DNA of 36,295 nucleotides from Candidatus Galloscillospira excrementipullorum (GTDB taxonomy: Bacteria > Bacillota > Clostridia > Oscillospirales > Feifaniaceae): NCBI GenBank assembly GCA_018714125.1, contig DVNV01000055.1:1-36295 (forward strand), given 5' to 3'. Positions within the stretch are counted from its first letter, which is position 1. Each line of letters begins with the position of its first letter. The notes under the pieces were generated by a model. It saw nothing but the letters and a program-made list of their open reading frames with translations, did not search any database and was not told the DNA's origin. Made by a program: the position numbers and the translations under genes. Of this stretch, positions 1-15,132 are shown piece by piece.

Positions 1-100
1 GCCCCGCCGGGCCTTTTTTGCCTGCGGCAAAAAAGCCGGGGAATTTCCCTTTCGGGAAATTCCCCGTTCAAAGCGGCGGCGCCGCTTTTCCCGGCGGGGC
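1..100. repeat. Cloverleaf-like set of four perfect inverted repeats
   Basis: Bases 1-10 are an exact inverted repeat of 91-100 and would close a junction holding three hairpins. Arm 1 pairs 13-22 with 26-35 around a TGC loop. Arm 2 pairs 38-49 with 54-65, 12 perfect base pairs around a TTTC loop. Arm 3 pairs 70-77 with 81-88. Almost every base of the 100 is in a stem. No protein gene is credible here, and the nearest one ends at 235. It could be a structured RNA, a palindromic mobile repeat or a cruciform. The strand is undetermined, and the closing stem may continue beyond the window edge. The pairing is directly visible; any function is unknown. Confidence 0.6.
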
Positions 101-9040: not shown

Positions 9041-10483
<1,443 letters not shown>

Positions 10484-10543
10484 TCTTCTCCTCCACATTT
10501 TTCACTTTTTGCGGGACGCCATTGCCCCCGCATGCTGTTTTTG

Positions 10544-15088: not shown

Positions 15089-15132
15089 CCTATTATGTAT
15101 AATTATTCTGTTTTTTGACGAATATTCATGCC

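Follow-up and report, generated by a model that had tools for sequence, protein, structure and literature searches.

The first 100 bases of the window, by which is meant the whole 36,295-nucleotide stretch of DNA that was analyzed, are a copy of a real, lineage-restricted dispersed repeat family with an unusual closed cloverleaf shape. The general kind of element, the structured small repeat, is known, and the literature search, which had most subscription journals outside its scope, returned no description of a cloverleaf element of this closed shape. The explanation that we prefer, and hold with moderate confidence, is that the family is an old MITE- or BOX-like non-coding hairpin-structured repeat of approximately 100–120 bp that spread in an ancestor, is now apparently immobile, and has its arms kept at the DNA level.

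Structure of the element

The predicted RNA minimum free energy of bases 1–100 was −72.3 kcal/mol, compared with −43.7 (sd 3.81) for shuffled sequences (z −7.51), and none of the 200 shuffles was as good. Folding with DNA parameters gave −48.4 (z −8.58) and an identical structure, and the original prediction of more order than expected by chance was therefore borne out with both parameter sets. The predicted bracket string contains 42 pairs that involve 84 of the 100 bases, with loops of 3, 4, and 3 bases, which agrees with the earlier description of an element that is nearly completely paired and has loops of 3–4 bases. The stem lengths that had been counted by inspection were right for hairpins 1 and 3, while the outer stem has 11 pairs rather than 10 and hairpin 2 has 13 rather than 12 (Table 1).

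The ends of the element are GCCCC and GGGGC. Ten of the 11 outer stem pairs were invariant across seven aligned copies, and the two arms, GCCCCGCCGGG and CCCGGCGGGGC, are near-constant across copies. The core of hairpin 1 (a T-run plus GCC on one arm, GGC plus an A-run on the other) is common to the copies, hairpin 3 has A-U to G-C double changes between copies, and hairpin 2 is the part that varies the most between loci. A structure-only scan found one strict closed three-hairpin element within the window.

Base 1 of the window is also the first base of contig C39 of this genome (1,608,930 bp in 99 contigs), and the element had been suspected to be part of something larger. This is not the case. 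The orthologue in G003, a genome of the same genus, is closed and complete inside a 235,773-bp contig and has DNA on both sides, and therefore the element is complete at base 1. The same internal copy rules out the end of a larger element or of the chromosome.

Table 1. Positions of the parts of the element, of the neighboring genes, and of single closed units in G003
Feature	Position	Strand	Remarks
Outer stem, 5′ arm	1–11	+	pairs with 90–100, 11 bp; RNA and DNA folds
Hairpin 1	13–35	+	13–22 with 26–35, 10 pairs, loop of 3 bases; fold
Hairpin 2 (middle)	37–66	+	37–49 with 54–66, 13 pairs, loop of 4 bases; fold
Hairpin 3	70–88	+	70–77 with 81–88, 8 pairs, loop of 3 bases, GC-rich core; fold
Outer stem, 3′ arm	90–100	+	pairs with 1–11; RNA and DNA folds
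GIY-YIG domain protein gene	235–762	−	PF01541, E 8e-16; coordinates are of the longest ORF, start putative
ftsZ	725–1951	−	PF00091, PF12327
Single closed unit, G003	C4:29293–29439		three or more hairpins, other outer stem
Single closed unit, G003	C4:91035–91166		three or more hairpins, other outer stem
Single closed unit, G003	C4:177476–177597		three or more hairpins, other outer stem
Single closed unit, G003	C4:214341–214437		three or more hairpins, other outer stem
Single closed unit, G003	C13:10085–10183		three or more hairpins, other outer stem

Family members and their distribution

When the same genome was searched at the DNA level, a second copy (89%) emerged where contig C16 terminates, and contig C11 gave a partial match. 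The outer arm pattern occurs at 23 places in this genome, compared with 12 for a reversed control pattern; eight of the 23 pair into four elements, and a ninth belongs to a decayed copy. A covariance model built from seven copies (R1) recovered four intact copies in this genome (74–100 bits) and five copies in G003 (63–99 bits), and the one further copy in this genome, on contig C85, is decayed. The outer stem and the side-hairpin cores are common to nine copies in the two genomes. Among the weaker hits of the model in this genome, with E values from 0.01 to 10, are opposite-strand echoes of the known copies, the decayed copy, and a stretch that overlaps the end of a tRNA (C11:7294).

With the covariance model, the same-genus draft G001 gave only one weak match (E 0.5) and the draft G002 gave none, and under stricter filters the element was present in two of the 295 genomes searched in the order and in two of the eight genomes of the family. 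The DNA search returned a match at E ≤0.01 in 13 of 40 relatives, the best outside this genome and G003 being 3.2e-4 over approximately 30 bases. No match to bases 1–100 was observed in plasmid and phage records with the settings used, and viral contigs contained no exact match to the outer stem plus its spacing. Chance in GC-rich DNA was weighed as a source of such elements and rejected. The outer stem with its spacing was recovered from 59 loci across the genome collection. Three of these are from G003, and they fold with three hairpins and 0.82–0.84 of their bases paired. Of the other 56 loci, 12 have three or four hairpins in their fold, but the arms are imperfect and the paired fraction does not exceed 0.76 (L129, for example, has 0.74); the rest have one or two hairpins. 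Within the named loci of 8 kb, 12 units passed the tight rule, four of which are from G003; the remaining eight compare with six in one shuffle.

Multiple copies with compensatory changes had been named in advance as the finding that would speak for a functional or mobile element. Such copies are present, and they support a palindromic dispersed repeat whose dispersal suggests mobility in the past.

Conservation and change between orthologous copies

The identity of each element and of its 100-bp flanks was determined over all columns between this genome and G003, a comparison in which random pairs score 45%. The window copy is 92% identical (flank 50%), the C16 copy 86% (flank 64%), the C11 copy 90% (flanks 67% and 49%), the intact C85 copy 70% (flanks 52% and 44%), and the decayed C85 copy 65% (flanks 68% and 47%). 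Conservation of the element above its flanks is thus clear at three loci, moderate at the fourth, and absent at the decayed one.

Hairpin 2 has from about 11 to 22 pairs and differs between loci, yet stays paired; the window and C16 copies are alike in this part, and the others are not. For the intact C85 copy, a register set by hand gave 6 double changes among the 17 pairs of the middle hairpin and no one-sided change. The automatic gapped alignment of the same pair of copies gave 3 double changes, 7 broken pairs, and 6 gapped pairs. The automatic count for all five orthologue pairs was 182 pairs the same, 7 double, 2 one-sided, 10 broken, and 10 gapped. In four cases the loop of one orthologue is the exact reverse complement of the loop of the other, namely in window hairpin 1 (TGC/GCA), window hairpin 2 (TTTC here, GAAA in G003), C16 hairpin 1, and C11 hairpin 3 (CCT/AGG). 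On the sequence alignment, in which MAFFT misplaces the middle hairpin, formal covariation was unconvincing in either direction, with 6 double-changed pairs compared with 5.0 in shuffles, 15 cells with double changes compared with 7.2 (with fewer pair types than in the shuffles), and a score of 0.183 compared with a higher score of 0.256 in the control slid by −1.

Structural RNAs are usually richer in G-U pairs. In the family, 5 of 393 pairs are G-U, compared with 10 of 217 in tRNA acceptor stems (p 0.014, with pairs that are not independent). Homogenization of arms and inversion of the spacer by template switching are described in the available text of two papers (PMC8604942, PMC8794818). 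Double changes with hardly any G-U pairs, together with loop inversion, are the traces attributed to this process, and the upkeep of the arms can therefore be at least partly mutational. When 22 ordinary hairpins in corresponding DNA were scored, 266 pairs were the same, 10 were double-changed, 1 was G-U, and 11 were broken, and 1 of the 12 loops that differ was an exact reverse complement. Four family hairpins in the same test had 45 pairs the same, 2 double-changed, and none broken, and 1 of their 3 differing loops was a reverse complement. Because the ordinary hairpins have as many broken as double-changed pairs, give or take one, and few inverted loops, template switching between the arms is considered plausible rather than proven. 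A DNA-level process of this type may explain part of the compensation. The constancy of the outer stem across five loci is not accounted for by arm upkeep; it suggests that the copies have a common origin, that their sequence is constrained, or both.

Genomic position and possible roles as RNA or DNA

Each of the five loci in this genome has a counterpart among the five of G003, as established by BLAST alignment. The neighbors in G003 are flavodoxin/GIY-YIG and ftsZ at the window locus, and A2M/S9 peptidase, S9 peptidase/HAD hydrolase, DUF5131/ABC transporter, and MATE/DegV at the others. In this genome, the element forms the border of contigs C39 and C16, so that the window and C16 copies have one flank each on the same contig, and the other side of the window locus is contig C1, whose start is next to the flavodoxin gene. 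Of the four intact copies here, two (at window base 1 and at the end of C16) lie exactly at a contig end and are cut at the identical base of the element. The first 38 bp of C1 (L209 1–38) duplicate an internal segment of the flavodoxin gene and are followed by the terminator hairpin of that gene, which looks like an assembly chimera at the hairpin. Short degenerate GGGGAGGGAGGCCCC-like repeats form a run in L160 at about 10300–10500, and contig C99 of this genome (L259) stops there.

The five G003 copies are located on one contig within 141,455 bp and have a single orientation; for five random points on a 1.5-Mb circle, such closeness has a P of 0.0004 in a post hoc test. Three of the copies are between convergent genes and two between co-directional genes. 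Naive ORFs of at least 80 aa overlap all five. In the only overlapping ORF that was tested, of 747 aa, the Pfam match (S9 peptidase) falls near the C-terminal end and does not reach the copy, and because the neighboring genes are Pfam-supported, these ORFs are judged to be spurious chance frames of GC-rich DNA.

A structured non-coding RNA was among the possibilities originally proposed. The element would then be a 3′-region element, an antisense terminator, or a small RNA, with a fold kept by selection, and we regard this as unlikely. The G003 copies all start 98–209 nt past the stop codon of a co-oriented gene, and the arms stay paired between orthologues, as would be expected of such an RNA. 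Read from the other strand, the middle hairpin together with the hairpin 1 T-run that comes after it had a terminator-like score in the three scanned stretches, and this score leaves room for an RNA role. Against this, no Rfam 15 family matched at its gathering score, a permissive search of bases 1–600 remained far below the gathering scores, and the only Rfam matches in the family loci were tRNAs elsewhere in those loci. No sigma-70-type promoter match was observed in the three stretches scanned, and in G003 a terminator-like hairpin is already present between the flavodoxin gene and the element (with a weak one on the DegV side of the MATE/DegV locus). The scarcity of G-U pairs, the restriction to two genomes of the order, and a formal covariation on the sequence alignment that is no higher than in the slid control also speak against an RNA, and ordinary hairpins are double-changed as well. 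Identity as a tRNA or tmRNA was dismissed, as ARAGORN found no match. No specific sign of a recombination site, another of the original proposals, was observed.

A function as a DNA site, either at the level of the chromosome or as a cruciform or single-strand hairpins bound by a protein, appears distinctly improbable. The clustering and common orientation of the G003 copies, the nearly invariant outer stem, and the few G-U pairs are in keeping with a site. However, dnaA is on another contig, which tells against an origin-proximal site, one copy has decayed in this genome, and the element is absent from two draft genomes of the same genus.

Other cloverleaf units in related genomes

The structure-only scan of the 235,773-bp contig C4 of G003 returned eight strict elements, compared with three in eight dinucleotide shuffles together. 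One of the eight (210414) is weak and is located inside a 245-aa ORF, and the units at 15120 and 177476 of G003 miss the strict rule. In other G003 stretches, four tight units were found in 391,892 bp, compared with none in one shuffle. The only tight units in 303,919 bp of this genome were the four known copies, and samples of G001, G002, G005, G006, and G007 and the first sample of G004 (59 to 127 kb each) contained no cloverleaf. Comparison of the other G003 cloverleafs with the examined stretches of this genome, in which one region stops at a contig edge, matched only the 143690 unit.

A second family, with the same layout and a sequence unrelated to that of the window family, consists of G003 C4:231277–231403 and C13:4147–4263. 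The two copies are 85% alike over 136 columns, a similarity that spans the element plus 11–18 bp on one side, and their 20-pair middle hairpin has three double and no one-sided changes. The C4 copy is within GC-rich DNA that resembles a simple repeat. In G004, which belongs to another genus of the same family, a different multi-hairpin repeat was observed in a larger sample (L229 3849–4139 and L245 3174–3344), with two tandem units at some distance past the ftsZ region and a third unit on a separate contig; the stems differ between the units and the pairing is kept.

Two readings bear on these units. In the first, there would be a shape-defined class of cloverleaf DNA with at least two sequence-unrelated families in one lineage, in which an outer inverted repeat encloses two side hairpins and an exchangeable middle hairpin, and the shape would be a substrate or site for a hairpin-recognizing enzyme or a chromosome-organizing protein. 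We consider this a rather remote prospect. In the second, which seems very unlikely, the cloverleafs would be by-products of hairpin-forming mutation in GC-rich, terminator-rich intergenic DNA and would have no mobile past. It would account for the closed multi-hairpin units of G003 that have no common sequence, some of which consist, by eye, of terminator-like hairpins, and for the double changes in ordinary hairpins. It would not account for one outer-stem sequence and one set of side-hairpin cores common to five loci, which independent origin would not give, nor for the second pair of units, which match beyond the element on one side. The common outer stem is strongly against it for the window family; the single closed units (Table 1) may be such by-products or chance assemblies of terminators.

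Proposed origin and maintenance of the repeat

A structured dispersed repeat that spread long ago is the preferred explanation. The repeat would have spread by a non-autonomous route before two species of a single uncultured Clostridia genus diverged from their ancestor, and its copies would now be fixed in intergenic DNA on the downstream side of genes. Its constant parts are the outer inverted repeat and the side-hairpin cores, and its variable part is the middle hairpin. The perfection of the arms would probably be kept up on the DNA itself, with template switching from one arm to the other during replication as a contributor; one such event can both homogenize the arms and flip the loop. 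As RNA, the element would have little or no role.

In common with MITEs, the family has several dispersed non-coding copies of similar length and terminal inverted repeats, here the 11-bp outer stem. It does not have 5′-TA-3′ ends, which, in the portion of the review available (PMC2229807), "most" are said to carry, and no target-site duplication was evident in the flanks as read by eye. All five copies are common to both genomes, and therefore no recent movement is seen. No empty site was found. No such element follows the MATE match in G001 or G004 within approximately 300 and 700 nt, respectively; the G002 contig and the ftsZ contig of G001 end too early for comparison, and G002 has other neighbors beside ftsZ. 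The copies are few, have one orientation, and lie within 141 kb, an arrangement that is not predicted by free transposition and that counts against the preferred explanation.

The family is a compact natural case of multi-hairpin DNA in which the loops flip and the arms remain paired because pairs change as a whole, in a setting where ordinary hairpins are double-changed too. Compensatory changes alone are therefore no proof of a selected RNA. With its five matched copy pairs, the family can be used to distinguish mutation from selection as the force that preserves shape, and if the shape itself is recognized, this would point to a new DNA-hairpin partner.

Comparison with known systems

The Correia/NEMIS, ERIC, RUP, and RPE repeats, as presented in the available part of a review (PMC2229807), form long stem-loops that are in most cases A+T-rich, end in TA, and are flanked by target-site duplications. 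They are similar to the present family in being non-coding, about 100–200 bp, intergenic, and highly paired, with terminal inverted repeats. In contrast, the present element is a closed four-way cloverleaf that is GC-rich, has no TA ends, and exists in very few copies. The CIR repeats of Caulobacter, from the same part of that review, are also intergenic and have more than one hairpin arm, but they consist of two arms and a linker with a GANTC motif, and an outer closing stem is not mentioned there. Stem-loop repeat families in a survey (PMC2267715, available in part) are likewise intergenic with a common predicted fold, and some are double hairpins or complex folds; the word cloverleaf has no occurrence in its main text, and its novel families comprise 9–164 elements compared with five loci here.

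REP/BIME elements with RAYT transposases (PMC2817692, available in part) resemble the family as dispersed extragenic palindromes. REPs usually have more than 100 copies, however, compared with five loci here, and the Y1-type transposase (PF01797) was found in none of the five genomes searched, which are drafts that may miss genes (the control was positive in 5 of 14); a REP/RAYT system was rejected on this basis. Hairpins maintained by template switching, according to the accessible text of PMC8794818 and PMC8604942, have double arm changes and loop inversions, as does the family. Those reports concern a mutation process, whereas the subject here is a family of elements.
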